From contig JAFGMI010000008.1 of the NCBI GenBank assembly GCA_016927595.1, positions 1 through 64,000 of the forward strand: a stretch of DNA of 64,000 nucleotides. Reading direction: 5' to 3'. The stretch's first letter is position 1. Each line of letters opens with the position of its first letter. Shown in pieces: positions 1 through 59,658 of the stretch. The notes beneath the pieces were generated by a model, which saw nothing but the letters and a program-made list of their open reading frames with translations, was not told where the DNA came from and searched no databases. The DNA comes from Melioribacteraceae bacterium. Its GTDB lineage: Bacteria; Bacteroidota; Ignavibacteria; Ignavibacteriales; Melioribacteraceae. The position numbers and the translations under genes are program-made.

Positions 1-1596
1 CTTTTTATATCTACTGCATTATTCGCAGCAGAGGCTGAAATATGGATGTTTATAAAAAACGGTACATCATGGATGTCCGCCCAGGTAGATGTCTACAAAG
101 CCATATCAGAAGGAGGATATTATTATTATGGCGGGAAGAAGGTACCTAGCTATCCAGATGGAGAAAACTGTAATGGCAGAATTGATATTGGATATGAAGA
201 TTACACAAGTGATCCTATATGTTCACCCCTCGATTACAATTCAACCTATATAATAGTTGTTGCAAATCAGGATTACCTAATAATCGATATAGGTTCTAGT
301 GGCGGGACGCCTGATGTTAATATACATTACGATTATCAGAGCCGTTCTTTTTGGGATTCAAATAATCATGGAACCGTTAGTTTAGCAGAACAGGGGAATA
401 ATGTGCCACAATATTTATTTTTCAACAATAATTTCCCGGGTGGATCCATATCTGTTTATAATGAATTAAAGACATCTTTACCATTTAATACTTATGAACT
501 GCCGGGACACAATATCCCATTGACCGCGGTCGAAAGTTCAACTCCAATAGAAGGGTATAAACGAGTCTGGTCGACCGGAAATAATCCAAGCGTATGGTTA
601 AAAACGGAGAATGGTAATCAATCATTATTTCCAAATCCAACGAACCAAACAAATTCTTATTCTGTTACAACCTATGATGATGTAACTATTCAAGCGGATC
701 AACGATTAGCAAAGGATATTACTTTTTCTAATCAATTTCCAGGTATAGGTTTAGTTGGAAATCATATCGTTGAGATCGTAGAAGGTAATCCGCATACTGA
801 AACGGCTGACGCAACAGGTCAGAGTAATGGTATATTTTTCACATTTGATCATTGGAGTACGGGATCGGATCCATACAGTAGAACACAAAGTTTTGAGTAC
901 AATGACGACGCCAGCATTCAGGCAATTTATAGTGCCAAGCCAATGTTCAACGATGTCAGTTACCGTTTCTTACAGATTTCAGCACAACCTACCGGTATGC
1001 ACACTGGTTGTATCAGACTTACGTGGCAAGAGCATCCTAACTCAAATGTAACATGGTACGCGGTATATAGAAAAATTGCAGTGAATGGTACTCCTCAGCT
1101 TTTACGAACATTGGTTCGTGGTAATACTGAATGCATCGACGGGGAATTTTTATACTACGGCGGTGAGATTATGGAAGCTTTATCGTACAGTGTATTAGCA
1201 AAATATTCGTATACTAACGAATGGTCTGAACATACATGGCTAAATGCTGCAGGAGGTGATTCAGGATTACCTGCACTCTGGAAGAAAGGAAATAATAATA
1301 CTTATCATGCCATTACTGAATATGCAATCGGTAACTTTCCAAATCCATTCAATCCCTCAGCCTGGATTAGTTATCAGCTTCCGGAAGCAGGCGTTGTTTC
1401 AATTAAAGTGTATGATATGCTCGGCAAAGAAGTTGCGGAACTAGTAAACGAAATGAAAGATATGGGAATATACAATGTTCAATTCAATGCTAATGATTTG
1501 GCAAGCGGTATTTATGTTTATACAATCAGGGTTGATGCTTTGAGTGAAGAGAGTACCGGATTTATTGCAAGTAAAAAAATGCTGCTGATGAAGTAA
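1..1596 (+). CDS. T9SS-sorted secreted protein, 5' end outside the window
   Basis: The reading frame is open from base 1, so the start codon lies upstream. The first residues (LFISTALFAAEAE) look like the hydrophobic core and cleavage site of a signal peptide, so only a few codons are missing. The body is rich in Asn, Tyr, Ser and Thr, as in surface proteins. A fibronectin-III-like stretch (motifs IRLTWQEHP and WYAVYRK) lies at about bases 985-1240. The last ~90 residues are a T9SS type A sorting domain: FPNPFNP, then SIKVYDMLGKEVAELV, then LASGIYVYTI and a terminal KKMLLMK. Known for the family: this domain directs export through the outer membrane and is removed or anchored at the surface. 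No enzymatic motif was recognised, so the function is unknown. An internal ATG at 46 would delete the signal peptide and is not the start. Confidence 0.88.
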   Translation, partial: LFISTALFAAEAEIWMFIKNGTSWMSAQVDVYKAISEGGYYYYGGKKVPSYPDGENCNGRIDIGYEDYTSDPICSPLDYNSTYIIVVANQDYLIIDIGSSGGTPDVNIHYDYQSRSFWDSNNHGTVSLAEQGNNVPQYLFFNNNFPGGSISVYNELKTSLPFNTYELPGHNIPLTAVESSTPIEGYKRVWSTGNNPSVWLKTENGNQSLFPNPTNQTNSYSVTTYDDVTIQADQRLAKDITFSNQFPGIGLVGNHIVEIVEGNPHTETADATGQSNGIFFTFDHWSTGSDPYSRTQSFEYNDDASIQAIYSAKPMFNDVSYRFLQISAQPTGMHTGCIRLTWQEHPNSNVTWYAVYRKIAVNGTPQLLRTLVRGNTECIDGEFLYYGGEIMEALSYSVLAKYSYTNEWSEHTWLNAAGGDSGLPALWKKGNNNTYHAITEYAIGNFPNPFNPSAWISYQLPEAGVVSIKVYDMLGKEVAELVNEMKDMGIYNVQFNANDLASGIYVYTIRVDALSEESTGFIASKKMLLMK

Positions 1597-42793: not shown

Positions 42794-43044
42794 TACCGCA
42801 CACTTCTTCTCCTCTTCATCAATCCTGAATATAATCGTAATCAGATTCATTCAATAAATTTTCACTTTTTACTTTGCGATATATATTTTATTTTATTGTT
42901 GTTGTTCATCAAATTATAAATAGTCATTTTAATTTTTCATTTATTTTGTTCGTCATCACTAAAATTAATAATGTAATACAAATCACTACCAATATTTCTA
43001 TATTTTTAATAAGATGTATTTCAGATATATTTTGATTGAATAAT

Positions 43045-43905
43045 ATGACTCATATAATTAATAAAGATTACATGAAAAGAATAGCGGCGGAGAAAGCGGC
43101 TGAGTTTATTGAGTCGGGGATGATTATTGGGCTGGGTTCAGGCAGTACTGCTTATTACGTGATCAAAAAAGTCGGTGAACTTATTTCAACGGGGAAGATT
43201 AAAAATTTTTTGTGCGTACCGACATCGGGTGAAACAAAAAGGATTGCAGAGGAGCTGAATATTCCATTAACTACTCTTGATGCGAATCCTGTTATTGATT
43301 TAACGATTGACGGAGCTGATGAAGTTTCATTTGTTTTTGATGATGATAAAGATCGGGATAAAGATTATGATCAGGACAAAGACAAAGATAAAAGATCACG
43401 CTTCGGCTCAGCTCGCTCCGGCTCAGCTCGCTTCGACTTCGCTCGCTTCGACTTCGCTCAGCGTGACATTAAAAGAATAGATTGTATTAAAGGCGGCGGC
43501 GGTGCGTTGCTGCACGAAAAAATAATTGCAGAGGCAAGTAAAGAATATATTATTGTTGTTGATGAGTCTAAACTTTCAGACAGACTGTTCGATAATTTTA
43601 GGCTGCCAATTGAAATTATTAGGATGGCGCGTGTAACCAGCCAAAAATTTATCGAGTCAATTTGTGAGGAAGCGGAATTGCGACTTGATTCAAATCACAA
43701 CTCATATTTAACTGATGAAGGCAACTTTATTATCGATGCCAGATTTGCCGGAGGTACAGATCCTGCTGAAATTGATTCTCTGTTAAACGGCAGGGCTGGC
43801 ATAGTTGAAAACGGATTATTCCTCGGTCTGGCTGATAAAGTTGTTGTGGGAAACGCTGCAGGTGTGAAAATTATAACTAATTGTCAAGACCTGCAAAAAA
43901 TTTAA
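43045..43905 (+). CDS. rpiA: Ribose-5-phosphate isomerase A with a ~47-residue internal insertion
   Basis: 286 residues from the ATG at 43045 (in-frame TTG at 43036 and ATG at 43072 are alternatives). It interconverts ribose-5-phosphate and ribulose-5-phosphate in the pentose phosphate pathway. IGLGSGSTAYYVI, VPTSGETKRIAEELNIPL, the catalytic TIDGADEV, IKGGGGALLHEKIIA and FIIDARFAGG are all intact. Between GADEV and IKGGGGAL, where RpiA normally has about six residues, this protein has 53 (residues 95-147). They comprise an Asp/Lys-rich run (DDDKDRDKDYDQDKDKDK) and an Arg/Ser/Phe-rich run (SARFDFARFDFAQRD). The insertion is in frame and the rest is conserved, so the gene is probably functional. 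Confidence 0.92.
   Translation: MTHIINKDYMKRIAAEKAAEFIESGMIIGLGSGSTAYYVIKKVGELISTGKIKNFLCVPTSGETKRIAEELNIPLTTLDANPVIDLTIDGADEVSFVFDDDKDRDKDYDQDKDKDKRSRFGSARSGSARFDFARFDFAQRDIKRIDCIKGGGGALLHEKIIAEASKEYIIVVDESKLSDRLFDNFRLPIEIIRMARVTSQKFIESICEEAELRLDSNHNSYLTDEGNFIIDARFAGGTDPAEIDSLLNGRAGIVENGLFLGLADKVVVGNAAGVKIITNCQDLQKI
43327..43485 (+). repeat. In-frame repeat-derived insertion within rpiA
   Basis: The first half is a run of GATAAAGA / GACAAAGA-type units and the second half repeats GCTCGCTTCGACTTC and ends in CGCTCAGCGTGACATT. These match the short GATAAAGA repeats and the CTTCGACNNNGCTCAGYGTGA palindrome arm in the intergenic cluster 42110-42600. The boundaries are approximate; they are taken from where RpiA homology stops and resumes. 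Confidence 0.75.
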
Positions 43906-44438: not shown

Positions 44439-47400
44439 ATGAACTTTTACAAGCTACTTAAGCAATTGAGCTTTATTGCGGTTATGCTTGCTTTCGGTGC
44501 AAGTTCCCTCATTGCTCAGACTTATGTTAGTAACACGAACGGTAATGACGTTACCGGTACTGGTACGGCTCTAAGCCCGTATAAAACCATTGCTGTCGGT
44601 ATGACCAATACTGCTTCGGGTGGAACCATAATCGTCGATCCAGATACTTATGCCGAAGGTGGTGCTCAGCTGGTAATAGGCGATGCATATACTTTCGTTG
44701 CAGAAGATTTTTGGACTACACCGAGTGGTTTAACGGTTGTTACAATTACTAACGGTATTGAAATAGCTCCTGGAGCAGGGAAAACTGTTTCTATTGGTGA
44801 AACCGGACTTACCTGGAATTTAGGTGCCACTGCAAATGCGTTAGAATTGACAGATGGTGCTTTGAATATAGTAACCGCTAACGTAACTATTGCTTCCGGC
44901 GGTACTGTTACTAGAACAGCAGGTACTCTTAATCAGGCGTTGACAACTACAAATGTTAATGTAACGTATGACGGCACGCTTGATATTGCTGCTGGTCCTG
45001 AAGTTCCGGCAGATTTGGGAACAGGTTTGCTGACCGTTAATATTACAGCCGGCAAAACCGTCACATTTGCAAATGCTATTGAAACAACAGGTGGCATTAC
45101 GGTTACTACAGGTAATGCAACTTTTAATGGCAACCTTGATCTTTCGACAAGTACATTTACAAATACACCTGCCGGCAATGCAATTTCAATTACTGGCAAC
45201 ATGAGTTTTACTTCCGGTAGAATATTAAACTCTAATACCGGTGTGGTAGTAATTGATGGAAATGTAAGCTGGTCTTTGGGTGCAGATCTTGTGGCTAGTG
45301 CCGTTGATAACAATGGCAACGGAACAATCACACTTAACGGCACTGTAAGTTTTACTCATGACGCAGTCGCAGTAGGCGATTGGGATGCTGTTATCGATAA
45401 TAATGGCACTGGTACAATCACATTGGCTCAGGGTTTCTCGAGTAATGATGCTGCCGCCAATAAAACGACAAGAGTTTCACTTACTAATGTTAGTACAGGT
45501 AATCTTATTTCTAATAGTACTATTACAGCATGGGATGTTACTCAGGCAGCCGCTGCAGGTGCTATTAAAGTAGCAGGCGGAACTGTAAAGAACGCAATCT
45601 CAGTTGGCGCGGCTGGTACTCTCGAATTAACAGCCGATTTAACAGCTAGCGGAGCAGTTGCGCATAACAATGCTGGTACAATTAAACTGAATTCTAATAC
45701 ACTTACAATATCCGGAGCAGGTGGTAACCTTCCTGGCGGCGGTAATGTAATCTCAACAACAGCTGCCACAGTTGGTTCAGGTACACTGAGCGTAACAAAT
45801 GCTATTACAGTTACCCAGGCTCAACTGCCTAACGTTAGTATTAGCGGCGCTGCAGGTAAATTAACACTCGGCGGTGCTACGGTTGCTTATGGTAACGTAG
45901 TGCTTAATTCAGCAGTAAACGGCGCTCTTACTGACGGCGGATTTAATCTGACGCTGCATGGCAATTTTACAAGATCGGATAATACCCCGACAAACCATGC
46001 ACTGACAGGTACTTTAACATTTGCTAATACTACTACAGCGCAGACACTTACTCCTGGCGCTTCACTTAGTTTGAATAATCTTACTCTTAATAAAGCCGCA
46101 GGTGTTGTTGTAACTCTGCAGGCTTCAATTATCGTAAAGAATAACTTAACAATTACTGCGGGTAGCCTGAACGTAGGTGACGCAAATTTGAATATGACCG
46201 GTACTGGTGTTACTTTTGATAACAGCGGTAGTGCATATTCCTCAACCGGTAATGGTTATGTAGTATTTGAAAACGCTTCCGCAGGCGGCGCTCTAACAGC
46301 AACAATACAAGGTACTGGTACTTTTGGTAATATTCTTATAAACCTTGTTGATGCTACTGATCATGTCGCAACCGGTTCGAATATTTCATTTTCTGGCATA
46401 TTATATATTAATAAAGGTGATCTTGATGTTGATGGAGCTGCTGAGACCCTCACCTTCACGAATACTCTTGTAGCTAGTCCTACAATCAAGATAAATACTA
46501 CTGCTGCTAACAGTGCTTCACTCGTAGCTACAGCCGGAGCAGTTGCAGTCGCAGCAGCAACCACAATAAATCTTGAATATTTTGGTACTACAGCTTTTGC
46601 AGCTGCTCTTGAATGGTCGGTTGGTACAGCTACAAAGCTTAACAATGTTACAATTAACACTACAAACGTTGCCGTTACTGGTTACAACGGTGCATCCACA
46701 ATAGCAGGCGTTCTTACGGTTGCCAGCGGTGCTACGTTAACCCAGGGCGCTAACGTTTATACGTTATCAGGTGCTTCCAAGACCCATTCGGTTCTCGGTA
46801 CAGTAGGCGGCGGTACATTAACTGTTACCGGTGCCGGCTCAGCGATTAACGGTGGTGTTGCAGCTGCTGACGCTGCTAAAATAAATAATCTTATAATTAA
46901 CCTTACAAATGCAACCGATGTCTTTACTTCTTCCAACTTGAAGGAAATTGCAGACCTTACCGTTACAAAAGGCGATGCTGCAATTACAATGACAACTACT
47001 GTTTCTAAGGTTGCCAACGTAACATTAACAGCTGGTTCACTTAATCTGAATATGCCTGGTACTACGGCAGTTTCAAATACACACACTGGTGATTTGACTC
47101 TGACATCAGGTACATTAACCTATACCAGAACTGCTGCCCAAAATACAATTGCCGGTAAAGTAACTTTAACTGCCGGAGATTTAATTCTGGGTTCAAATGT
47201 GTTGGTAGCTGGCGATGGTGCTGATGGTATTTTGCAGGATGACGGTAACATAAATCTTGGTGGATTTGACCTTACATTACAACCAGCTGCAGCATTCGCT
47301 GCCGATTATGACAGAACCGCTGCTGGCGCTGCAGGTACGATTACTAATGGTACTTTAGTATTAGACGCAACAACACAGGCTATTGACTTAAGCCCGGGTA

Positions 47401-50400
47401 CTTCCTTTGTTTTACCTAATGTTGAGTGTGTCGGTACTGCTAACGGTGTTACATTTAATGCCTCATTGGAAATCGGCGGAACTTTATTGGTTGATAATGC
47501 AGGTACTTTAACACAAGGTGCAGGCGTTCTTACAGTTTCCGGCGGTTCAATTCATATTGAAAGTGACGCCGGTGCGTTTACAGGTGCTATGACTATAACC
47601 GGCACAACTGTAACCTTAGAAAAAGACTATGCTATTCCTACTTTAGTAATTAACTCCGCCGGAACAGTTTCTGTAGTAAGCGATCCTGTTGCAACGGTAC
47701 GTACATTAACCGTAGGAACCGCATTTACACTTACACAGGGTACCTTGGCGATGGGTGATCATCACCTCGCCGTTAGTACTGCATTTACTTATACAGCAGG
47801 TTCAATTACTCAGGAAGACGGTATCTTGAAACTTAATGTTGCTCTTCCTACCTTACCTGCTACCGGATTTGCTGTGGATAATCTTCAGGTTCTTACTACT
47901 GCAACAAGCTTTGGAACAAGCGCTGTTACAGTAAATAAAAATCTGATTATGGATGTATCCATTACTACGAGTGCCGATGGAAAATTAACATTAGGCGACG
48001 GTTGTTTGATAACAAGAACAGCTAACGCTGCTGTGTTATCAAAACTGCCTACATTCGGTGCAAATACAGATGTAAAATATATGACATTTACAGGCGGTGA
48101 TATTAGTACTGCAAAAGAACTTCCCGCAACTGTAAGAAACTTAACTCTTGTTTCTTCAGATGCGACAGCTAATAACGCAGATGCGGTTGAAGTTTTATTA
48201 ACAGCAAATGTAACTGTTAGTGGTACATTATCGCTGGCTGATAAATTAGACGCTGTTACTAATTCAAAAACTGTTACGATGGGAGACGGATCAACATTGG
48301 AACTTAAAGTTAACGGTACTGTTGCTTTAGATAAAAATGTTGTTAAATCCGGTGCTATGGATTTAGTATATAATGGTGCTACGAACACATCACTGAGAGA
48401 ATTTGGTACAATAACCAGTGGTGCGCATCCGACATACACAGGTGATATTACATTCAAGAACGATGTAAATCTTGATGCTGCCACACATACTATAAATGGT
48501 ACAGTTACTTTGGATGGTGGAAATATTATCACCAATAGTGATGCGGTTAATGCTGCTGCAATGGATGCTGCAGTTACTGCAGCTAGCCCTGTTGTAATCA
48601 CAATTAACGGTCACGGACTTACAACCGGTACTGAAGTATATATAAGAGGAAACTCTGAAATTGCTGATGGTGAATATGCTGTAACAGCTATCAACGCAAA
48701 CACATTCAGTGTTCCTTTTGATAATACAGCTGGCGCTGGTGCTGCTACTGATGGTACAGTTTACAAAACAGACAGGACTTTGAACTTACAGGGTAACGTA
48801 GCGGAAACTGCAAATAAAGGCTGGTTCAGAGGCACCGGAAATGTTAATTTCACAGGCGCAAACGACCAGACACTTACAATTGTTGAAAACAAAACAATTG
48901 CAGCTTATTCGTCTTTTGCAGTTAATAAAACAAATGCTGATGATTATGTACTGCTTAGTGGTGGTAATCTCGACTTTGCAGCAAATTCAATTAACCTTGG
49001 TCTTACTAAAGGTGTGTTGAATACTGATGCAACAAGCAAAATTATTCTTAAGCAGTCTGTATCGGGCGGTCAGCCGACTCAGGGTTTTGCAAGAACAGCT
49101 GGTGTTGTTGCTGGTAATGTTGAGAAATTCATTGATAGATCAACAACTGTAGATATAAGCAAGGTTGAATTCCCGACCGGTTCTCTTGCCGGCGAATACA
49201 GACCTGCAAACTTCTACTTTAAGTCCACTCCGCAGTCTTCAATTAACCTCTTGGTTAATCATGAAGAAGTATCTCCTGGTGGCGAAAACGGTATTCCGCT
49301 TACAGTTAATTCTACCTTGACTGTTACAAACTATCCTGATTTCTTCTGGTTTGCTAGATCAGACATAGCTCTTGCTCCGTCTTACAAGTTCGACGTTGAA
49401 TTCCAGGCTCAAGGTTATAATGATTATGTGCTCGATGGAATCGAAAATGTTCGTTTGATGAGAAGAGATTCGGGTAACGTTGCTAACAACTGGGTACTCC
49501 AGGGCGGAACAACCGCTACATACGATAACTCGACAATAGATGCAAACTGGCCTCTGGTTAAAGTAATTGACGCTACTGGTGGTATAACACAACAAGGCTC
49601 TAGATTTACTTACAGCCAGTCCAACAAGGCTCCGGTTGTAGCAAAAACGGCTACGAAAAATAGCGCAGTTCTTGATGTTTCTGCCGGTACAGCTACAATC
49701 AATGAAAAGACGGATACACTTGTTGTAACCTACACAGTCAGCGATCCCGACATAGGTGATGCAGCAACTTTATCAAGCACACTTCTGCCTACGGGCGCTA
49801 CATGGGCTAACAGTAAGGTAACGTGGACACCAGGTTACGATCAGGCTGGAACCCATGAAATTATTATAACAGGTACAGATACTTACAATCAAATGACACA
49901 CGACACATTGACTGTAACCGTAAATAATGTTAATCAGCCTCCTACATGGACAGCTGCTCCTACGGATACGACCAATGTTTACGAAAATACAGCTTCAACA
50001 TTCACATTCACAGCAGTTGACGCCGACGTTCAGGATGTGACCTACACATTTGCGGTTACTGCCGGTACATCTCCGGACAGCATTTCAATCGTTGACACTA
50101 CAGGCGTTCTTTATATTATGCCTGCATTCGGCGAAGCCGGTAACGTATTCAGCGTAAAAGTAACAGCTACTGACGGAGCAAGTCCAATTGACTCTACGGT
50201 TGTGTTCAAAGTTAACAACGTGAACAGAGTTCCTGTTGTTGATACGGCTATGCCTGATACAACAGTAGCCGAAGCTGCTACATTGACTTTGGATTTCGGT
50301 CCTAATTTCAGTGATCCTGATGCTGAAGCTCTTACATTTACACATAAATTATTAAAAGCCGGTGTTGCTGTTGACTCTGCATTGGCAGGTGCTATGACCG

Positions 50401-51962
50401 CAGCAGGCGTATTTACATGGACGCCTTCATATGTTCAAGCCGGTGATTATGTATTAGTTGCTACTGCATCCGACGGTCTAGGCGCAACAGACGATACGGT
50501 TGCTGTTGTAGTTACGGATGTTAATGCCGCTCCTACATTTACTGAAGTTCTGGTTAACGACACAGTATTTGTCGGTGAATCGTTCGAATTCATTTACGAA
50601 GCTGTTGACCTTGATGGCGATGCATTAACATTCAGCTTTGCTGATGAAAATCCGACTGGATCAACTATAACTGCAATAAACGATACAAGCGCTAAATTCT
50701 CATGGACACCTGAAGTTCAGGCTACAGCTATCTATCTGATTAAAGTAAAAGTATCGGATGGAACAGCCGAAGCTAACACAACAGGCGAACTTCTTGTTAA
50801 AGTTACAACTGTTGATCTGAGCGGTAAGGTTACATATGCAGACGGCGCGCTTGCAATTGCAAATGCAGAAGTTACATTAAATACAGCTAAAGATACAACA
50901 GATGCAAACGGTGATTTCGGATTTACTGGTGTAGCTGCAGGATCATATACTCTTACTGCAAGCAAGACCGGTAACAGCGGCGGTATTTCATCTGCAGATG
51001 CTTTGGCTGCGGCTTTGTTCTTTGTAGACGACTCTGTAAACGCATTAACCGATATGCAGCAGTTAGCAGCAGACGTGAATGAAGACGCCACAGTAAACCT
51101 GACTGATGCTCTCCTTATTCTGAGAAAATCTGTAGGTTTCGACGACGCAACATTCACAGCTGACGAATGGCTGTTTGAATCCGAAAGCGTTACAGTTACT
51201 ACATCAAATGTTACACAGAACTTTGCAGGTATTGTAGCCGGCGACGTTAATGCAAGCTTTACACTAAGCATGGCTAAACAAGCTGCTCCAATATCGGTTA
51301 ACAGTTCAGAAATACTTAAGATTAAACCTCAGGCAGAATTTGAATTGCCTGTTAAAGTTAGTGCTCCGGCTGAAGTTAGTGCTTACAACTTAGCGTTCAG
51401 CTACCCTGCAGATCTTATGGAATTTGTAGGCGTAAGCGGTGCATCTAACATTATATATAACGATGAAGAAGGATTGGTTAAAATTGCTTTTGCAGACTTC
51501 ACCGGTAAGAAACCGCTTAGTGTTGATGAAGACGGTGCTATTGCGCTTCTCAAATTCAAAGCTACCGAAGCATTTGCTAAATCTAGTGAAGCAAGTGTAA
51601 CCTTACAGGAAGGTGAAGTAGTTAACAGGTTTGGTAAAGATGCTAATGTTGCGTTGAATGTTGCTACAGTATCTGTATCAATACCTACAACTTTCGCGTT
51701 GATGCAGAACTATCCGAACCCATTCAATCCGTCAACAACTATATCTTACGACTTACCGGAAAACGGCAAAGTAACATTGACCATTTACAACACTATCGGT
51801 CAGGAAGTTGCTACACTGGTTAACGGTACAGTACAGGAAGCAGGTTCATATAAGGTTAATTGGAATGCTTCAAATCTGGCTAGTGGTATTTATCTCTACA
51901 GAATTAACGTAGAAGGTGCAAAAAACCACGTAGTTGTTAAGAAAATGATGCTTATGAAGTAA
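44439..51962 (+). CDS. Giant T9SS surface protein: beta-helix, Ig-like, dockerin and cohesin segments
   Basis: 2507 residues, with AGGAG upstream of the ATG and a signal peptide ending in SLIAQT. Residues ~28-1700 are Ala/Gly/Thr/Asn-rich strands of ~20-30 residues, typical of a right-handed beta-helix adhesin; the start resembles DUF1565 (GTGTALSPYKTI). An FCCH-like module (HGLTTGTEVYIRG, NTFSVPFD) interrupts it at ~1384-1446. Ig/cadherin-like domains follow at ~1729-2127, then a carboxypeptidase-regulatory-like domain (~2125-2178). A dockerin segment occupies ~2178-2234, with the calcium loop DVNEDATVNLTD from Asp2212 and a degenerate first repeat. A cohesin-like domain is at ~2282-2414 and a T9SS sorting domain at ~2419-2507. 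Likely a surface scaffold or adhesin; ligand unknown. Confidence 0.88.
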   Translation: MNFYKLLKQLSFIAVMLAFGASSLIAQTYVSNTNGNDVTGTGTALSPYKTIAVGMTNTASGGTIIVDPDTYAEGGAQLVIGDAYTFVAEDFWTTPSGLTVVTITNGIEIAPGAGKTVSIGETGLTWNLGATANALELTDGALNIVTANVTIASGGTVTRTAGTLNQALTTTNVNVTYDGTLDIAAGPEVPADLGTGLLTVNITAGKTVTFANAIETTGGITVTTGNATFNGNLDLSTSTFTNTPAGNAISITGNMSFTSGRILNSNTGVVVIDGNVSWSLGADLVASAVDNNGNGTITLNGTVSFTHDAVAVGDWDAVIDNNGTGTITLAQGFSSNDAAANKTTRVSLTNVSTGNLISNSTITAWDVTQAAAAGAIKVAGGTVKNAISVGAAGTLELTADLTASGAVAHNNAGTIKLNSNTLTISGAGGNLPGGGNVISTTAATVGSGTLSVTNAITVTQAQLPNVSISGAAGKLTLGGATVAYGNVVLNSAVNGALTDGGFNLTLHGNFTRSDNTPTNHALTGTLTFANTTTAQTLTPGASLSLNNLTLNKAAGVVVTLQASIIVKNNLTITAGSLNVGDANLNMTGTGVTFDNSGSAYSSTGNGYVVFENASAGGALTATIQGTGTFGNILINLVDATDHVATGSNISFSGILYINKGDLDVDGAAETLTFTNTLVASPTIKINTTAANSASLVATAGAVAVAAATTINLEYFGTTAFAAALEWSVGTATKLNNVTINTTNVAVTGYNGASTIAGVLTVASGATLTQGANVYTLSGASKTHSVLGTVGGGTLTVTGAGSAINGGVAAADAAKINNLIINLTNATDVFTSSNLKEIADLTVTKGDAAITMTTTVSKVANVTLTAGSLNLNMPGTTAVSNTHTGDLTLTSGTLTYTRTAAQNTIAGKVTLTAGDLILGSNVLVAGDGADGILQDDGNINLGGFDLTLQPAAAFAADYDRTAAGAAGTITNGTLVLDATTQAIDLSPGTSFVLPNVECVGTANGVTFNASLEIGGTLLVDNAGTLTQGAGVLTVSGGSIHIESDAGAFTGAMTITGTTVTLEKDYAIPTLVINSAGTVSVVSDPVATVRTLTVGTAFTLTQGTLAMGDHHLAVSTAFTYTAGSITQEDGILKLNVALPTLPATGFAVDNLQVLTTATSFGTSAVTVNKNLIMDVSITTSADGKLTLGDGCLITRTANAAVLSKLPTFGANTDVKYMTFTGGDISTAKELPATVRNLTLVSSDATANNADAVEVLLTANVTVSGTLSLADKLDAVTNSKTVTMGDGSTLELKVNGTVALDKNVVKSGAMDLVYNGATNTSLREFGTITSGAHPTYTGDITFKNDVNLDAATHTINGTVTLDGGNIITNSDAVNAAAMDAAVTAASPVVITINGHGLTTGTEVYIRGNSEIADGEYAVTAINANTFSVPFDNTAGAGAATDGTVYKTDRTLNLQGNVAETANKGWFRGTGNVNFTGANDQTLTIVENKTIAAYSSFAVNKTNADDYVLLSGGNLDFAANSINLGLTKGVLNTDATSKIILKQSVSGGQPTQGFARTAGVVAGNVEKFIDRSTTVDISKVEFPTGSLAGEYRPANFYFKSTPQSSINLLVNHEEVSPGGENGIPLTVNSTLTVTNYPDFFWFARSDIALAPSYKFDVEFQAQGYNDYVLDGIENVRLMRRDSGNVANNWVLQGGTTATYDNSTIDANWPLVKVIDATGGITQQGSRFTYSQSNKAPVVAKTATKNSAVLDVSAGTATINEKTDTLVVTYTVSDPDIGDAATLSSTLLPTGATWANSKVTWTPGYDQAGTHEIIITGTDTYNQMTHDTLTVTVNNVNQPPTWTAAPTDTTNVYENTASTFTFTAVDADVQDVTYTFAVTAGTSPDSISIVDTTGVLYIMPAFGEAGNVFSVKVTATDGASPIDSTVVFKVNNVNRVPVVDTAMPDTTVAEAATLTLDFGPNFSDPDAEALTFTHKLLKAGVAVDSALAGAMTAAGVFTWTPSYVQAGDYVLVATASDGLGATDDTVAVVVTDVNAAPTFTEVLVNDTVFVGESFEFIYEAVDLDGDALTFSFADENPTGSTITAINDTSAKFSWTPEVQATAIYLIKVKVSDGTAEANTTGELLVKVTTVDLSGKVTYADGALAIANAEVTLNTAKDTTDANGDFGFTGVAAGSYTLTASKTGNSGGISSADALAAALFFVDDSVNALTDMQQLAADVNEDATVNLTDALLILRKSVGFDDATFTADEWLFESESVTVTTSNVTQNFAGIVAGDVNASFTLSMAKQAAPISVNSSEILKIKPQAEFELPVKVSAPAEVSAYNLAFSYPADLMEFVGVSGASNIIYNDEEGLVKIAFADFTGKKPLSVDEDGAIALLKFKATEAFAKSSEASVTLQEGEVVNRFGKDANVALNVATVSVSIPTTFALMQNYPNPFNPSTTISYDLPENGKVTLTIYNTIGQEVATLVNGTVQEAGSYKVNWNASNLASGIYLYRINVEGAKNHVVVKKMMLMK

Positions 51963-51975
51963 GACTGATTAAATT

Positions 51976-52010
51976 CAGGGTGTAAGTTAAAACTTACACC
52001 CTGTTTTTTA
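51976..52010 (+). terminator. Strong terminator after the giant surface-protein gene
   Basis: A perfect 13-bp stem CAGGGTGTAAGTT / AACTTACACCCTG with a minimal loop is followed by TTTTTTAT. It separates the two large secreted-protein genes, so the second needs its own promoter or readthrough; only ~30 bases remain before its ATG. Confidence 0.93.
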
Positions 52011-52041
52011 TAATCTATGTTTAATTTTGAGAGGAACTTAT

Positions 52042-55000
52042 ATGAAAAAAATCACATCAATTTTGAGCTTAATTTTTCTTTTTGGTTTTTCCGTTCTCCA
52101 GGCTCAAGTTGCAACTATAAGTTTATCAGATACCACAGCTGTTGAAGGTTCTGCAATAAACGTTCCCCTCAGTACAAACAATGATCTCGAAGATGTTAGC
52201 TCTCTTACATTTAATATAAAATATGATGCCGCTGTATTAACATTCAATAATGAAATTGCAAACAGCCAGTTATTAACAACCGGTAATTTGCAGGTTAATC
52301 ATACGGAAGACGGAGCTAACAGTATTATTTCAATTGGATGGTTTAGCACTACGCCAATCACAATTCAAGATTTAATTTTGGATTTGAAATTTGTTTATAT
52401 TGAGGGTACTTCTCCGTTAACATTTACGGGTACTAATGAAGTAACCACAGCAGCTGCTATTATCGATGTTGCTTTTGATGACGGCAGTGTTTTCTTGGCT
52501 GGTCAGGGTCCATTAACATTTTCTCTTTCGGACGAAACTTCAGATCAGAATCAGTCTGTAGCTGTTGATCTCAGAGGAATGAATCTGAATGAAGTAGGAG
52601 CTATGCAGTTTACTGTTGAATACGACACTACTGCATTAGATTTTGTTGAATTACAAAACGACATTGTGGGTTTTACCATAAACTCGGATGTTGATGGTGT
52701 AATTACGCTGGGATGGTTCTCAACTGACGGTTTGTCGGTTATTAACTCAATTCTGGCGCAGCTCGTATTTAATTATACAAGTGGAAATGTTCCCGTTACT
52801 TTTGATCAGGCAGCATGTGAAATCACTAAGCTCGATCAGACAACATTAGTTGCAACTTATAATGACGGTAGTGTTGCTCAGACTACCGCTACTTTAAGCC
52901 TGGCTGACGTTACAGCCCATATCGGCGATACTGTAAATGTTAGCTTCAGTGCTAAAAACATTGTCGATCTCGGCGCGATGACAGTTAAAATTAATTATAA
53001 TGCTACAAATCTTTCATTTTTAGGATTAGTAAACCAAACAGCAGCCGGAAACTTTAGCGCAAATTCTGCCGGCGGTGTTCTAACACTAGGATATTTTAAT
53101 ATTGACGGTCTTGATGTGGTAAGTGATCAGCTGGTAGACCTTCAGTTTGTTTATAATGCCGGAACATCAAACGCTCTGGTATTCGATGAAGCAGACCCCG
53201 AAGTAATAGAAGTAGACGCCACACCAATCAATGTTGCGTTTGTGGATGGGTCTGTCAGTGAAGATACAGCAAACGTAGCCCCGGTATTCACGGCTGTACT
53301 CGGTGCTGCTGAAATTACAGGAGGCGATACACTTTCATTTACATATACAGCAACCGATGTAAATGATGATACTCTAGTATTTGCACTTGTTTCCGGACCG
53401 GAAGGAATGACAGTTGACAGTACCGGCGTTCTTAACTGGGCTACAACTCTGACTACAGCGGGTACTTTCGATGTTGTTGTTTCTGTAAGTGATGGGGAAC
53501 TTGCTAATTTAGATTCCTCAACCGTATTGGTAAATGATATAGCGGTTGAAGTTACAATCAAACAAATACAAACACCTGTAGATTCCACCGATGCTTCCCC
53601 ATATGCTGGTCAGTATGTCAGAACTACTGGTGTTGTTACAGCAGTCGATGCTTATGGAAGCAGTAAAGGATTCTTCCTGCAGGATGGCACAGGTGCTTAC
53701 AGCGGCGTTTTCGTTTATGATCGTGCAGAACCTGTTGTCGAAATAGGCGATAATGTTACTGTTACTACTAAAGTATCTGAATACTACGGTTTAACAGAAC
53801 TGGATTATGACCATAACCCGGTTGCTCTCGTTGTGAACAGCACGGGCAATTCTGTTCCATCAGCAACTACTATTACCGCTGCTGATATGGGCGAAGAGTA
53901 TGAAAGTGTCCTTATCAGAATAGCAGATGCAACGGTAACAAATGATAGTCTTGGTTTCGGTGAATGGGAAGTCAGCGATGCAAGCGGTTCAATTGTTGTT
54001 GATAATGAACTTATGTCCTTTACACCTGAAGACGGCGCTGTTTATCATGTTACCGGTGTTGGTTATTATTCTTATGATCAGTATAAAATAGCACCTAGAG
54101 ACGAATTTGATATCGTCGTAGGAGCTGATGTTTTATATACATGGTTTGAAGTTCCGGCTGGCTCGGAAATATTCCTGAGTGCAACGGATAACAACCAGAG
54201 AGGTATGGCTTACAACCCGGCTACCGGAAATGTTCTTGTTGCTTCAAGAACCGGCGATAACAAAATATACGTTCTCGACGGAATTACGGGAGAATATCTC
54301 GCAGATCTCGATATGGGTAATGTTAATGATTCATCTTATCAGTACAGAGTTAATCAGGTTGTTGTTACCGATGACGGTGTAATTTATGCCTGTAATATGG
54401 TGGCATTCAGCTTTGCAGCTAATTCTTTCGTAATTCACAGATGGGCTGATGAAGATGCTACACCCACTATCGCTTATAAAGGGACACTCACAACAAGAAA
54501 CGGCGATGCAATGGCAGTTGTCGGTACAGGAACATCTACAGTAATTTACGCCGGTGGTGCAAATTCTGCAGAATTGAGAAAGTATACAACTGCTGACGGT
54601 GAAAACTTTGTGCTCGAATCCACAATTACGTGGGCAAACGGAGTGCATGGTATTGCTCCGGTATCAGCCGATGCCAATTCTAATATCTGGGTCAACAAAG
54701 CCGGTCAGGCTGTAACCCTAATAGATCAGAGTGGTACAGTGCTTGCAACCGTACCGTCATCAGTTCTTTCACTCGACTTTTCCGGTGTTGATTATCTCGC
54801 AATGGGAGACGGAACTCAATTGCTTGCAATCGGAGCCAGCACAACTGCTGATAATGCTCTGAAGGTAAAAGTTGTTGATGTTACCGATTTAGACCATCCG
54901 AGAGTTACATGGATGGGTGAAAGATCTACTGCGTATAACTTAAACAACATTACAAGCGGCGGCGTAGTAAACATTGCAGCTTACGAAGACGGATTCAAAC

Positions 55001-56217
55001 TATACTCGTTAGTTTGTAATAACGGCGTGGGTGCATTTGGAACTGTTGAGGCTCCTCCTCCGCCATTCAGACTGAGAACGTTAACACACGACACCGGTAA
55101 TCTTAAATTCCAGATTTGGAACGATGGTACATACGGTGCAAGTATTAACGGAACTTCAGGTTTGATTGAATGGAACGGTCAGGACGGTCTCTGGAGAGGC
55201 TCTCCTCTCTGGGGTAGAACATCTGTTGGTAAAGTAAGCGGTTCAGCTTATCTGGGTGGCTCGGCAACACGCTATAATGATTTAACAGGTGTTGCAGATG
55301 AGTTCAGATATGGTTTCACTGAAATGGCTGAATTTGATCAGGTTGCAGACTACACTATTACCGACGGTAATAATTCTGCAGGCTACGGTTTACCGGTAAA
55401 TGTTGTAAGCATGTCTAAATCAGGTCTTGAAGCTGTTATTGTGTGGTTTGGATTTGTTAACAATACAGCTGAATCAATAGATGACCTTTACGGTGGTCTG
55501 TTCCTGGATTTCGATGTTGACGGTGATACTTATGAAACGAATTCTGGCGGATACAGTGAAGGCGAAAGACTTGTCTATGTTTATGACTCACAGTCTCCAT
55601 ATTATTACGGCGTTTCTGCGGTATATGGATTTGACGGCTATCTTGCTACAACATCATCCGCTTCCGATCTTAATGATTCCCGTACCAAAGCGTTTCAGGG
55701 GATTTCAACTCCAGACGCAGACGGACCGGATACAAACGGTGATATACGGACATTTATCGGCAGCAAGGTTGATGCTATTGCTCCTGGTGATACAGGATGG
55801 GTTGCATTTGTAATCTCTGCTGGTGATGAATTGATTAATTTAAGGGATAATATCAGTCATGCAATTACCGTTGCCAAGTATTACTTCGACAATAGTATTG
55901 TTGTAACTGATGTCGAGCAGGAACCTGGAATACCGGAAGATTATTCATTGTCACAGAACTATCCTAACCCGTTCAATCCGACTACTACAATTAAGTTCGG
56001 ATTGCCGGTTGCTAGTCAAGTAAAAGTTAAAGTATATAATTTGCTGGGTGAAACTGTTCAGGTTCTTGTGGATCAGAGCATGGCAGCCGGTTCTTATAAT
56101 ATTAACTTTAATGCAAGCAATCTGGCATCGGGTGTTTACTTCTATAATATAGAAGCTAAATCGGTTGATGGCTCAAAGGACTTTAATATTGTCAAGAAAA
56201 TGATGCTTGTTAAATAG
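52042..56217 (+). CDS. T9SS surface protein with three cohesin-like domains
   Basis: 1391 residues from the ATG at 52042 (GAGAGGAAC upstream; an in-frame TTG at 52027 was rejected). The signal peptide ends at VLQAQ. Three tandem cohesin-like domains lie at ~23-152, ~157-278 and ~284-407. Each shows the alternating pattern of cohesins: (I/L)SLxD, then IKYDxxxL or equivalent, GWFST/GYFN, LxLxFxY, and a closing DGSV. They are followed by an Ig-like domain (~412-498), an OB-fold (~503-690, GFFLQDGTGAYSGVFVY), a propeller-like region (~700-1003), an unassigned region (~1007-1290) and a T9SS sorting domain (~1297-1391). Cohesins bind dockerins; the preceding gene encodes one, so the two products may form a complex. 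Confidence 0.87.
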   Translation: MKKITSILSLIFLFGFSVLQAQVATISLSDTTAVEGSAINVPLSTNNDLEDVSSLTFNIKYDAAVLTFNNEIANSQLLTTGNLQVNHTEDGANSIISIGWFSTTPITIQDLILDLKFVYIEGTSPLTFTGTNEVTTAAAIIDVAFDDGSVFLAGQGPLTFSLSDETSDQNQSVAVDLRGMNLNEVGAMQFTVEYDTTALDFVELQNDIVGFTINSDVDGVITLGWFSTDGLSVINSILAQLVFNYTSGNVPVTFDQAACEITKLDQTTLVATYNDGSVAQTTATLSLADVTAHIGDTVNVSFSAKNIVDLGAMTVKINYNATNLSFLGLVNQTAAGNFSANSAGGVLTLGYFNIDGLDVVSDQLVDLQFVYNAGTSNALVFDEADPEVIEVDATPINVAFVDGSVSEDTANVAPVFTAVLGAAEITGGDTLSFTYTATDVNDDTLVFALVSGPEGMTVDSTGVLNWATTLTTAGTFDVVVSVSDGELANLDSSTVLVNDIAVEVTIKQIQTPVDSTDASPYAGQYVRTTGVVTAVDAYGSSKGFFLQDGTGAYSGVFVYDRAEPVVEIGDNVTVTTKVSEYYGLTELDYDHNPVALVVNSTGNSVPSATTITAADMGEEYESVLIRIADATVTNDSLGFGEWEVSDASGSIVVDNELMSFTPEDGAVYHVTGVGYYSYDQYKIAPRDEFDIVVGADVLYTWFEVPAGSEIFLSATDNNQRGMAYNPATGNVLVASRTGDNKIYVLDGITGEYLADLDMGNVNDSSYQYRVNQVVVTDDGVIYACNMVAFSFAANSFVIHRWADEDATPTIAYKGTLTTRNGDAMAVVGTGTSTVIYAGGANSAELRKYTTADGENFVLESTITWANGVHGIAPVSADANSNIWVNKAGQAVTLIDQSGTVLATVPSSVLSLDFSGVDYLAMGDGTQLLAIGASTTADNALKVKVVDVTDLDHPRVTWMGERSTAYNLNNITSGGVVNIAAYEDGFKLYSLVCNNGVGAFGTVEAPPPPFRLRTLTHDTGNLKFQIWNDGTYGASINGTSGLIEWNGQDGLWRGSPLWGRTSVGKVSGSAYLGGSATRYNDLTGVADEFRYGFTEMAEFDQVADYTITDGNNSAGYGLPVNVVSMSKSGLEAVIVWFGFVNNTAESIDDLYGGLFLDFDVDGDTYETNSGGYSEGERLVYVYDSQSPYYYGVSAVYGFDGYLATTSSASDLNDSRTKAFQGISTPDADGPDTNGDIRTFIGSKVDAIAPGDTGWVAFVISAGDELINLRDNISHAITVAKYYFDNSIVVTDVEQEPGIPEDYSLSQNYPNPFNPTTTIKFGLPVASQVKVKVYNLLGETVQVLVDQSMAAGSYNINFNASNLASGVYFYNIEAKSVDGSKDFNIVKKMMLVK

Positions 56218-56455: not shown

Positions 56456-57388
56456 ATGAATATTCAAGTAACAAATCTTACTAAAAAGTACGGTACTCAG
56501 AGAGCCGTAGATAATATTTCCTTTAATGTCAGCACAGGCGAAATACTGGGATTTCTGGGACCTAACGGTGCAGGTAAAACAACAACTATGAAGATTCTCA
56601 CATGCTTCATGGCTCCCACGGATGGGGATGTAAATATCGGAGGATATTCCATCCATGAGGATGCTGCGGAAATAAAACGAAGAATCGGTTATCTTCCGGA
56701 AAATAATCCGCTTTATCTTGATATGCAGATGCTTGATTATCTTGAATTTGTTGCTCATCTGCATGGAGTTGATAAGAACAAAATTGATAAGCGTATCGCC
56801 GAAATGATTGCAGTGTGCGGATTGAACGTGGAAAAACATAAGAAAATCGGCGAGCTTTCAAAGGGATACCGCCAGCGGGTGGGTCTGGCTCAGGCGATGA
56901 TACACGACCCGGATATTCTGATTCTGGATGAACCTACGACAGGGCTCGATCCGAACCAGATTGTAGAGATCAGGAAACTTATCAGGGAAATAGGCAAAGA
57001 GAAGACAGTGATATTGAGTACTCACATACTGCCGGAAGTTGAAGCTACCTGCGATAGAATACTTATAATTAATAACGGAAAAATTGTGGCAGACGGTACC
57101 TCGGAAGTCTTGCGAAAGCAGGCTCAGAGCGAGGAAACTTTGCGTGTTCAGATACTTGATGCTAAAAATAAGGATGAAATAATTACTTCCGTAAGTGCGC
57201 TTGATTCAGTTTCGATGATCGATCCTGTTAGTGATATGGATAATACGTTTATTATTAATAGCCGGGCGAACCAATCATCAAAACGAAACTTGTTTAATTT
57301 ATGTGTGGAGAAGAAGTGGGTTCTTACTGAAATGACCCCGCTTGAAACCAAACTCGAAGATATATTTAGAGAATTAACAACAAACTGA
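56456..57388 (+). CDS. gldA: Gliding-motility-type ABC transporter ATPase
   Basis: A 310-residue ABC ATPase. Walker A is GPNGAGKTT (35-43), the signature is ELSKGYRQRVGLAQAM, Walker B is ILILDEPTTGLDP, and the H-loop is LSTHILPE. The C-terminal ~70 residues form the extension seen in GldA-type proteins. It would energise a transporter with the GldF permease and GldG encoded directly downstream (7-base gap to gldF). In Flavobacterium this set is needed for gliding, but it also occurs in non-gliding bacteria. Confidence 0.88.
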   Translation: MNIQVTNLTKKYGTQRAVDNISFNVSTGEILGFLGPNGAGKTTTMKILTCFMAPTDGDVNIGGYSIHEDAAEIKRRIGYLPENNPLYLDMQMLDYLEFVAHLHGVDKNKIDKRIAEMIAVCGLNVEKHKKIGELSKGYRQRVGLAQAMIHDPDILILDEPTTGLDPNQIVEIRKLIREIGKEKTVILSTHILPEVEATCDRILIINNGKIVADGTSEVLRKQAQSEETLRVQILDAKNKDEIITSVSALDSVSMIDPVSDMDNTFIINSRANQSSKRNLFNLCVEKKWVLTEMTPLETKLEDIFRELTTN

Positions 57389-57395
57389 AAAAATT

Positions 57396-58121
57396 ATGAA
57401 TGAAATTTTAGTTTTAGCTCACAAGGAACTGCGGACTTTTTTCGATTCATTAATCGCCTATATTCTTATAACTATTTTCCTCGGAATGAGTGGGTTCTTT
57501 ACATGGCTGTTCGGTTCGGATATTTTCTTTATCGGGCAGGCTACGCTGCAGCCCTTTTTCTCTATCGCTTACTGGACACTATTCTTTTTTATACCTGCAC
57601 TGACCATGCGTATGCTGTCAGAGGAGAAGAGGAGTGGCACGCTTGAACTACTCCTGACAAAACCGCTTTCGGACTGGCAGGTAGTTATGGGAAAATTTCT
57701 GGCGTGTTTGGAATTAATTGTTATTGCGCTTCTTTTTACATTGCCGTATTACATTACTGTTTCGTTCATCGGTCCAATAGATCACGGGGCAGTAATCAGC
57801 GGATACTTCGGTATGCTTCTGATGAGCGCAGCTTTGATCAGCATCGGTCTGTTCGCAAGCAGCATTACAAATAACCAGATAGTTGCATTCCTTTTGTCAC
57901 TTGTAATCGGTGTATTTTTCCTGATAATTTTTGATGTTCTCTCTAATAGTTTTACCGGATCATTCGGTCAGTTTCTGAACTATCTGAGTTTATCAACTCA
58001 TTATGAATCCGTTTCGAGAGGTGTTATTGATTCCCGCAACATAATTTATTTCTTGTCCCTGGGGTACCTCGGACTGTTTCTTGCGGAGTCCGTATTGTCA
58101 AAAAGAAATATAGTTGAATAA
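57396..58121 (+). CDS. gldF: ABC-2 permease, GldF-like
   Basis: A 241-residue membrane protein with six hydrophobic segments. LAHKELRTFFDSLIAYI at the start, MRMLSEEKRSGTLELLLTKPL (in part EEKRSGTLELLLT), which is the conserved cytoplasmic loop of ABC-2 permeases, and the C-terminal SRGVIDSRNIIYFLSL are typical of GldF and related permeases. It lies between gldA and gldG with 7- and 10-base gaps. Confidence 0.88.
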   Translation: MNEILVLAHKELRTFFDSLIAYILITIFLGMSGFFTWLFGSDIFFIGQATLQPFFSIAYWTLFFFIPALTMRMLSEEKRSGTLELLLTKPLSDWQVVMGKFLACLELIVIALLFTLPYYITVSFIGPIDHGAVISGYFGMLLMSAALISIGLFASSITNNQIVAFLLSLVIGVFFLIIFDVLSNSFTGSFGQFLNYLSLSTHYESVSRGVIDSRNIIYFLSLGYLGLFLAESVLSKRNIVE

Positions 58122-58131
58122 TGGTATAATT

Positions 58132-59658
58132 ATGCTAACTAGAAAAAAATTACAAACAACAGTATTACTAATCGTAGGAATTCTGGTCTTAGTCAATATT
58201 ATCGCCGATAAGCTCTTCTTCAGGCTTGATTTCACTGCAGACCAGCGTTACAGTTTAAGCAGGGCTACAACTGATATCCTGAATGAACTCAACGATCCTG
58301 TTACTGTAACAGCCTATTTTTCAGAAGATCTTCCGCCTGATGTTGCTAAGGTTAAAACAGACTTCAAAGATATGCTTATAGAGTATTCAAATAACTCCGG
58401 CGGTCAGATTGTATACGAGTTCATAAATCCCAATGAGGATCAGGAAACCGAAATGCAGGCTCAGCAGAACGGTATTCAGCCTATTATGATCAATGTGAGG
58501 GAGAGAGATCAGGTTAAACAGCAAAGGGCATATCTCGGCGCAGTACTGCAGCTCGGCGAGAAGAAGGAAATAATCCCTTTCATACAGCCCGGCGCAGCAA
58601 TGGAGTTTGCTTTGTCCTCTAATATCAAAAAATTATCCGTTCAGCAAAAACAAAAGGTCGGGTTTCTGCAGGGTCATGGCGAACCTTCTCTTTCTTCAAT
58701 GCAGCAGGTTGATCAGGCTTTAAGTGTAATGTATAACACCGACACGGTTACGGTAACTCCTGTGAGAGGCGTTCCCGGCGATATAAATACACTGGTAGTT
58801 ATTGCTCCGAAAGATACTGTAAATGGATATGTATTTGATCATCTCGATAATTTTATTGCTCGGGGTGGCAGAATTTTACTTGCACTCAACAGAGTTGAAG
58901 GCGATTTATCAGCAAGCAGCGGGAAAACAATTTATACGGGATTTGAAGACTGGGTTAAAGAGAAGGGTATTGAGATCGAGGATAATTTCCTGATCGATAT
59001 AAACTGCAGCAATGTTATGGTTCGTCAGCAGCAGGGAATGTTCGTAATGAACACGCCAATTAGTTTTCCGTATTTGCCCATTATTTCAAATTTTGCAGAT
59101 CATCCCATAACAGAGGGACTTGAAGCGGTTGTTTTACCTTTCGCAAGCGGAATTAAAATAAATCCGATTGATACATCACTGGCATTCATGCCTTTAGCAT
59201 TAAGTTCTGAAAAATCGGGGACTAAGAATACACCGTTATATTTCGACATATCAAAACAGTGGAGACCAAGTGATTTTCCGCTCAGTTCAATTCCGGTTGG
59301 TGTCGCCGTAGAAGGGAGAATTTCCGGCGATGTATTTAATAAGATGGTTGTTTTCGGGGATGGAGATTTTGCCGTAAACGGGGAAGGTCAGCAGGCACAG
59401 CAGCTGCAGCCCGATAACATAAGCCTTCTGGTAAATGCCATCGACTGGCTTTCGGACGATACAGGATTAATTGAGTTAAGAACAAAGGGAGTAACCTCCC
59501 GACCCATTGACGCTGATTTGGAAGACGGTACAAAAACTTTACTGAAATACGTTAATTTCCTCCTCCCGATTATATTGATTGTTGCATACGGCATTTTCCG
59601 TTTTCAGGTTAATAGAAATATCAGAAACAAATTAAAGTCGATTGATTATGTCAAATAA
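58132..59658 (+). CDS. gldG: GldG-family protein (ABC-associated auxiliary component)
   Basis: About 508 residues from the ATG at 58132; a TTG at 58114 overlaps gldF and was rejected. One N-terminal helix (TVLLIVGILVLVNIIA) and one C-terminal helix flank a large periplasmic domain. RLDFTADQRYSLSRAT, VTVTAYFSEDLPP, QQKQKVGFLQGHGEPSL and a DUF4350-like region (~240-330) match GldG. It would act with GldA and GldF. The DUF4340 gene overlaps its last 11 bases. Confidence 0.88.
   Translation: MLTRKKLQTTVLLIVGILVLVNIIADKLFFRLDFTADQRYSLSRATTDILNELNDPVTVTAYFSEDLPPDVAKVKTDFKDMLIEYSNNSGGQIVYEFINPNEDQETEMQAQQNGIQPIMINVRERDQVKQQRAYLGAVLQLGEKKEIIPFIQPGAAMEFALSSNIKKLSVQQKQKVGFLQGHGEPSLSSMQQVDQALSVMYNTDTVTVTPVRGVPGDINTLVVIAPKDTVNGYVFDHLDNFIARGGRILLALNRVEGDLSASSGKTIYTGFEDWVKEKGIEIEDNFLIDINCSNVMVRQQQGMFVMNTPISFPYLPIISNFADHPITEGLEAVVLPFASGIKINPIDTSLAFMPLALSSEKSGTKNTPLYFDISKQWRPSDFPLSSIPVGVAVEGRISGDVFNKMVVFGDGDFAVNGEGQQAQQLQPDNISLLVNAIDWLSDDTGLIELRTKGVTSRPIDADLEDGTKTLLKYVNFLLPIILIVAYGIFRFQVNRNIRNKLKSIDYVK

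Follow-up and report, generated by a model that had tools for sequence, protein, structure and literature searches.

Cellulosome-type assembly is known mostly from Gram-positive anaerobes. Two adjacent giant genes of a Melioribacteraceae bacterium (Bacteroidota, Ignavibacteria; assembly GCA_016927595.1) raise the question of whether a comparable assembly of cohesins and dockerins could be built on a different export route, the type IX secretion system (T9SS). The genes lie in a stretch of 64,000 nucleotides (contig JAFGMI010000008.1, positions 1 to 64,000; hereafter, the window) of a genome of 3.85 Mb in 59 contigs (99.8% complete), and a listing of open reading frames (ORFs) of the window confirmed both; their products are called P1 and P2 here. 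On balance, and with modest confidence, we favor a reading in which P1 docks on P2, the two being T9SS-exported surface proteins joined without covalent bonds, and in which the scaffold may also take up enzymes in relatives. The pair probably forms a surface assembly that resembles a cellulosome but uses another secretion system, its binding being predicted from sequence.

Domains of P1 and P2

The original prediction, made from the letters of this DNA without database searches, placed one cohesin-like domain in P1 and three in P2, and profile searches bear this out. PF00963 (Cohesin; cut-off 24.1 bits) matches P2 in three stretches with 49.5 bits and P1 with 38.3 bits in a search of the whole genome and with 36.4 and 39.4 bits in fragments, the P1 domain having been missed by a Pfam scan of the full 2507 residues. 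Two cohesin folds were modeled, that of P1 and the second of P2. The P1 cohesin (residues about 167–294 of the predicted model of the P1 cassette) aligns with 6kge_A over 119 residues at 1.9 Å (VIA Z 13.5), and its matches to Type I cohesins (CipA, 1aoh; CaCohA2, 6kgc and 6kge) and to the non-cellulosomal cohesin 2xdh of Archaeoglobus fulgidus have VIA Z scores of 11.2–13.5; the predicted model of P2 cohesin 2 (predicted local distance difference test [pLDDT] 95.6) reaches a Foldseek template modeling score of up to 0.90 (6kgc_A). The fold is the same as in these solved cohesins, but sequence identity to them is 13–26%, and at the studied loci the cohesins form two lineages split by neighborhood. 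That the domains are misread beta-sandwiches is ruled out by the cohesin profile together with the fold matches.

Both proteins end in T9SS sorting domains, again as predicted: PF18962 and TIGR04183 are over cut-off on each, and Por_Secre_tail scores 36.2 bits in P1 and 44.0 bits in P2 (cut-off 27). SprA, the T9SS component searched for, is present in the same genome (SprA_N, 184.7 bits; contig C16 of genome G000), as are 93 matches to T9SS tails at E ≤ 0.01. The N-termini of P1 and P2 are hydrophobic and signal-peptide-like (simple script only). About 1700 residues of the N-terminal part of P1 are by composition rich in Thr, Ala, Gly, and Asn, and about 670 more residues of P2 before the T9SS tail have no Pfam match over cut-off. 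No carbohydrate-binding module (CBM), sortase, or SLH domain is among the Pfam matches of either protein (E ≤ 1), much of P2 being without assignment; a phmmer search against PDB sequences returned one chance match for P2 and weak matches for the P1 tail.

The dockerin of P1, which had been proposed from a calcium loop, takes more argument. The loop, DVNEDATVNLTD, is present and relatives’ modules match dockerin profiles, but P1 itself stays below the cut-off of PF00404 (Dockerin_1; 22.9 bits), with 18.5 bits in the genome search and 15.6 bits as a fragment, and the match is confined to the profile’s second half. The profile check that the original prediction recommended favors the cohesins and, for P1 alone, falls short on the dockerin; with the relatives included, the observation as a whole is confirmed. 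Sub-threshold PF00404 matches are common in control genomes (9 of 14 at E ≤ 1; over cut-off in 2), so that the P1 match is not convincing by itself. The module is identified as a dockerin because its counterparts in relatives match dockerin profiles: they are over the PF00404 cut-off in six of eight cases (27.3–47.0 bits, with 16.9 and 21.8 for the remaining pair) and in three of four from a second set (the fourth, 18.8 bits), and C-terminal modules in relatives match PF00404 at E ≤ 1e-5 in 32 of 37. Additionally, a family profile built from 20 modules finds the solved dockerins 4uyp_B (E 4.6e-10), 4uyq_B, 4dh2_B, and 1ohz_B, its best PDB match being not a dockerin but the CarboxypepD_reg-like NOMO2. 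Over its dockerin part, the same profile matches a solved chain named ‘Serine protease’ (8x39_A, 8x3a_A).

The original prediction is also to be corrected in that the dockerin lies within a composite CarboxypepD_reg module. A model of the P1 cassette (residues 2119–2412, from 58 sequences; pLDDT 92.6, predicted template modeling score [pTM] 0.90) gives the dockerin three helices (67–78, 87–93, and 103–113), and model range 7–149 matches the transthyretin-like domains of carboxypeptidases (1qmu_A, VIA Z 11.1, 77 residues, 1.6 Å). Because these 77 aligned residues span 143 and the PF13620 match stops at position 58 of 82, before the dockerin, the ranges suggest a dockerin inserted into the CarboxypepD_reg sandwich, with strands that end in GDVNxS closing the latter. 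No dockerin chain is among the 50 VIA matches listed, which is uninformative, cohesins filling much of the list. In the type II X-dockerins of clostridial scaffoldins, a beta-sandwich X domain adjoins the dockerin. The family profile matches three of these (4wi0_B, 4u3s_B, and 2b59_B), the likeness being a match in one stretch over both module parts (4wi0_B, E 1.2e-6, positions 14–106); in P1, by contrast, the sandwich is CarboxypepD_reg-like, appears to enclose the dockerin, and has a cohesin and then a T9SS tail after it.

Only the second calcium loop of P1 is canonical: loop 1, KTGNSGGISSAD, is without calcium ligands, and loop 2 has them. The family resembles P1 in this respect, with the pattern D1-[DN]3-D12 in none of 122 parsed modules for loop 1 (nor Asp at position 1 in any) and in 105 of 122 for loop 2 (27 of 38 outside the pattern-scan loci). 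These counts come from a parser that required D12, left 32 of 154 modules unparsed, and misparsed loop 2 of P1, which was read by eye; since the pattern scan used loop-1 positions 6 onward, conservation there is search-biased, positions 1–5 being unaffected. A degenerate loop 1 combined with a retained loop 2 indicates that the module probably binds one calcium ion, and it is possibly a new dockerin format with one calcium site.

Recurrence of the gene pair in relatives

The comparison covered 146 genomes, from the bacterium’s own to those of its family and order. At E ≤ 1e-4, the family profile matches 141 of these, mostly via the CarboxypepD_reg part, and for this reason only matches at E ≤ 1e-20, found in 28 of the 146, were counted as full modules. 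Cohesins (E ≤ 1e-4, over cut-off) occur in 26 of the 28 genomes with a full module versus 54 of the 118 without (Fisher p 2e-6, uncorrected for kinship). Among the 118, genomes such as G017, G068, G070, and G127 pair a cohesin with a neighboring dockerin that lacks CarboxypepD_reg. A pattern scan of named genomes added 78 loci, most titled Bacteroidetes, Ignavibacteriales, Bacteroidales, and the like, with three titled uncultured bacterium. The pair recurs in many metagenome-assembled genomes (MAGs) titled Bacteroidota or Ignavibacteria, as well as in the named strains Natronoflexus pectinivorans (L146) and Alkalitalea saponilacus (L148). Nine loci are in MAG records titled Sphingomonadales (L103, L105, L113, L116, L124, L126, L127, L135, and L140), although the module is otherwise of Bacteroidota type, and these titles may be wrong.

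Altogether, 154 distinct dockerin ORFs were collected. The order dockerin, cohesin, T9SS tail (Doc-Coh-T9SS), which is that of P1, is found in 75; 13 have a dockerin and a T9SS tail, and one has a dockerin and a cohesin without a T9SS match. The remainder comprises 37 that end at most 60 residues past the dockerin without a T9SS match, 22 others, and six cut by contig ends. At several loci (L103, L107, L112, L113, L115, L117, L123, and L130), the dockerin is N-terminal or central and is followed by other sequence with no T9SS match.

That P1 and P2 are neighbors only because T9SS cargo genes cluster and duplicate would fit the 93 tails in this genome and the rows of T9SS-tailed genes at several loci. 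Gene order makes this highly improbable in our view: cohesins are rare in the genome (eight matches in four ORFs, on contigs C5 [P1 and P2], C14, and C32), yet 44 of the 72 Doc-Coh-T9SS genes that have 500 bases or more of downstream sequence are immediately followed by a cohesin gene, as compared to 8 of 75 that are immediately preceded by one. After genes of the C-terminal-dockerin class, a cohesin gene follows in 5 of 35. Among the 44 next genes, 39 are without a dockerin and 31 have two or more cohesins, as P2 does; eight are cut by contig ends. By locus source, adjacency was 23/41, 11/13 (own locus included), and 13/21, in subsets that overlap slightly and of which the last was picked with cohesin matches in view and is biased upward. 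Between the stop codon and the first Met codon of the following frame lie 6–107 bases in 41 of the 44 pairs and 165–432 in three; in several loci, such as L094, L133, and L146, there are only 6–13.

One MAG, RA.bin97 (loci L084, L087, L090, L096, L099, L100, L107, L110, and L143), has many dockerin genes, several of them Doc-Coh-T9SS genes without a cohesin gene after them, and possibly encodes a large docking system.

A tree built by a quick method from 179 of the 276 cohesins (121 columns), sampling 60 of 71 dockerin-adjacent cohesins, all 34 other cohesins of dockerin proteins, and 85 of 171 others, places 49 of the 60 dockerin-adjacent cohesins in one branch of 51 rows and eleven outside it; the Shimodaira–Hasegawa-like approximate likelihood ratio test (SH-aLRT) value of the branch is 91, below the tool’s mark of 95. 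The dockerin-adjacent label changes six times on the tree, versus a shuffled mean of 50.3 (0 of 500 shuffles as low, near-copies helping). The three cohesins of P2 fall on the other side of the main split. Given this single branch, the dockerin and its adjacent cohesin look like a jointly inherited cassette that is separate from the tandem sockets.

This inheritance also suits an arrangement in which the P1 dockerin pairs with its own adjacent cohesin, either as a locked joint within one chain or by polymerization of P1 head to tail, with P2 being a neighbor that has partners of its own. Dockerin and cohesin adjoin in one chain with a T9SS tail throughout the Doc-Coh-T9SS class (75/154), and the pTM of the whole cassette model suggests a fixed relative placement of the two. 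Even so, the module also occurs alone, 37/154 ORFs ending shortly past the dockerin, and a cohesin gene often follows the Doc-Coh-T9SS gene; we regard self-pairing as doubtful.

The 37 ORFs with a C-terminal dockerin, a class defined by having no T9SS match, include enzymes. Their cargo comprises 12 polysaccharide deacetylase, three GH18, three DMFA2_C, and two CARDB matches, along with single matches to CotH, subtilase, M43, S9, alpha-amylase, and beta-lactamase families; two of the 37 carry cohesins. Among the 30 whose 5′ end is intact, a simple script found a signal-peptide-like start in 25 and a lipobox in none of these 25. The question raised is by which route enzymes without a T9SS tail would reach a scaffold. 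One answer, which we consider quite unlikely, is piggyback export: in Bacteroidota, a dockerin nested in a transthyretin-like domain would replace the T9SS tail as the handle for export and display, the Sec-exported enzymes would dock in the periplasm on the cohesins that T9SS proteins carry, and both would cross the outer membrane jointly, with P1- and P2-type proteins forming a carrier pair that would be stripped-down in the window’s genome.

The same enzymes bear on the view that all these domains are structural blocks of giant T9SS adhesins, in which the cohesins would be ordinary beta-sandwiches and the dockerin a relic, with no docking at all. Cohesins are common in relatives without the full module (54/118, a few of them with a dockerin lacking CarboxypepD_reg), so that cohesins alone do not show docking; in the bacterium’s own genome, the C14 and C32 proteins have cohesins without a dockerin match; Asp is absent from position 1 of loop 1 throughout the parsed modules; and the P1 dockerin is below cut-off. 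Loop 2, on the other hand, is kept in most modules, both overall and outside the pattern-scan loci, enzymes with a terminal dockerin exist in relatives, and the gene order recurs. We judge this view to be unlikely.

Candidate partners and the proposed assembly

A search for other dockerin proteins in the genome, which the original prediction had suggested as a source of docking partners, found none. PF00404 has a single match at E ≤ 1, inside P1. The family profile has 31 matches at E ≤ 10, of which that in P1 alone covers the whole module; the remaining 30 all end at or before position 106 of 150, and the longest of these (C2:2579–2890) contains no dockerin or cohesin according to the dockerin and cohesin profiles. 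Free dockerin enzymes were considered for this genome and rejected, given that only P1 carries the full module and the genome is 99.8% complete. For the three P2 cohesins, P1 is therefore the sole source of a dockerin that these searches found; its dockerin, in turn, has as candidate partners the cohesins of P2, of P1 itself, and of the C14 and C32 proteins.

In the assembly that we favor, P1 and P2 would be exported by the T9SS and attached via their T9SS tails. The calcium-dependent dockerin of P1, held in its CarboxypepD_reg frame, would plug into one of P2’s three cohesins; P2 would act as a multi-socket scaffold, and P1 would contribute its long, probably fibrous or adhesive, N-terminal part. 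The domains, the two modeled folds, the gene order, and its recurrence are observations, whereas docking, surface location, the shape of the N-terminal part, and the purpose are deductions. In some relatives, the scaffold may also receive enzymes ending in the same dockerin. Since no free dockerin enzymes were found here, the assembly in this genome likely serves adhesion or a structural role, and not degradation. The statement that degradation of polysaccharide need not be the purpose fits this genome, but in some relatives deacetylases, GH18 proteins, and peptidases carry the same dockerin. The wider proposal of a T9SS-exported surface scaffold agrees with the cohesin and dockerin-type domains, the T9SS tails, the presence of SprA, and the recurrent gene order. 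Overall, the original interpretation finds partial support, cohesins being common also where the full module is absent.

Several observations weigh against docking of P1 on P2. Besides the sub-cut-off score of the P1 dockerin and its single canonical loop, the cohesin adjacent to that dockerin could occupy it. The gene after a Doc-Coh-T9SS gene is without a cohesin in 28 of 72 cases, and 5 of the 44 cohesin-bearing next genes are themselves dockerin genes. Two genomes (G105 and G131) have the full module and no cohesin match, the family-profile search was limited to 26 scored candidates in many genomes, and the co-occurrence of module and cohesin is partly built in, as many modules are fused to a cohesin and the genomes are related. 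Finally, owing to a terminator-like hairpin between the genes, P1 and P2 need not share one transcript and may be two transcription units in this genome.

The T9SS context, which the original prediction had presented as a departure from sortase- and SLH-anchored cellulosomes, is not new. For Candidatus Stygibacter (Cloacimonadota), PMC8542988 proposes, from MAGs, a cellulosome-like complex whose tandem-cohesin scaffoldin has a T9SS-type C-terminal domain and whose signal-peptide enzymes carry C-terminal dockerins; the idea of a T9SS-anchored scaffold is, by that source, an earlier one. As described there, and compared by that description, the Stygibacter scaffoldin has CBM2/CBM3 and is accompanied by free dockerin enzymes (PMC8542988), whereas P1 fuses a dockerin and a cohesin, Pfam shows no CBM on P2, and the genome searches found no free dockerin enzyme. 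With the clostridial cellulosome, the pair shares a multi-cohesin protein and a dockerin partner; it differs in having no sortase or SLH domain or CBM among its Pfam matches and no dockerin enzymes found in the genome. A literature search in a limited collection returned no account of this pair, of a nested dockerin, or of the cohesin split in Bacteroidota. In the gene pair, a compound dockerin-cohesin cassette is coupled with a tandem-cohesin neighbor, and the pair offers testable partners.

Feature coordinates and neighboring genes

The coordinates of all features are collected in Table 1. The likely start of P2 is corrected there from the TTG at 52027 to the ATG at 52042.

Table 1. Features of the P1/P2 locus, in window positions.
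Feature	Position	Strand	Basis and remarks
P1, 2507 residues: signal peptide, T/A/G/N-rich region, Ig-like domains, CarboxypepD_reg with dockerin, cohesin, T9SS type A tail	44439..51962	+	ORF, domain scans, composition
Ig-like/cadherin-like stretch of P1, residues about 1729–2118	49623..50792	+	He_PIG 24.1 bits (cut-off 24), four stretches; limits approximate
First part of CarboxypepD_reg (transthyretin-like) sandwich of P1, residues 2127–2178	50817..50972	+	PF13620 36.3 bits, profile 2–58 of 82; fold match of model 7..149
Dockerin-like module of P1, residues 2185–2231	50991..51131	+	Sub-cut-off PF00404, three model helices, family profile
Second calcium loop of P1 dockerin, starting at residue 2212	51072–51107	+	Read from sequence
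Strands after the dockerin, ending GDVNASF, predicted to close the CarboxypepD_reg sandwich	51168..51257	+	Model strands 126–128, 131–135, 144–148; VIA range 7..149, 77 aligned residues
P1 cohesin, dockerin-adjacent lineage	51291..51674	+	PF00963, VIA fold match, tree
T9SS type A sorting domain of P1	51711..51959	+	PF18962, TIGR04183
Terminator-like hairpin between P1 and P2	51976..52003	+	12 pairs followed by a T-rich tail; matched to a consensus only
P2, likely start ATG 52042	52042..56217	+	ORF listed from TTG 52027; AGAGG upstream of ATG
Cohesin 1 of P2	52114..52404	+	PF00963 31.4 bits
Cohesin 2 of P2	52543..52875	+	PF00963 29.4 bits; model; Foldseek 6kgc_A E 4.6e-12
Cohesin 3 of P2	52891..53256	+	PF00963 26.8 bits
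Putative Ig domain (He_PIG) of P2	53281..53502	+	PF05345 24.3 bits, cut-off 24
P2 region like the N-terminus of ExeM/NucH nucleases	53623..53946	+	NF033681 48.6 bits, profile 1–117 of 546; domain only, cut-off 300
T9SS type A sorting domain of P2	55960..56199	+	PF18962 49.6 bits, TIGR04183

A TATAAT-like hexamer follows the hairpin between P1 and P2 (window 51976–52014). Upstream of P1 lies an rpiA-like gene (43036–43902), the family match of which is in two separate stretches, so that it may carry an insertion. Directly 3′ of P2 are gldA-, gldF-, and gldG-like ABC transporter genes (56456–59655), all below equivalog cut-offs; judged by eye, similar gld-like genes seem to follow the pair in two further genomes, G002 and G007 (L054 and L055).

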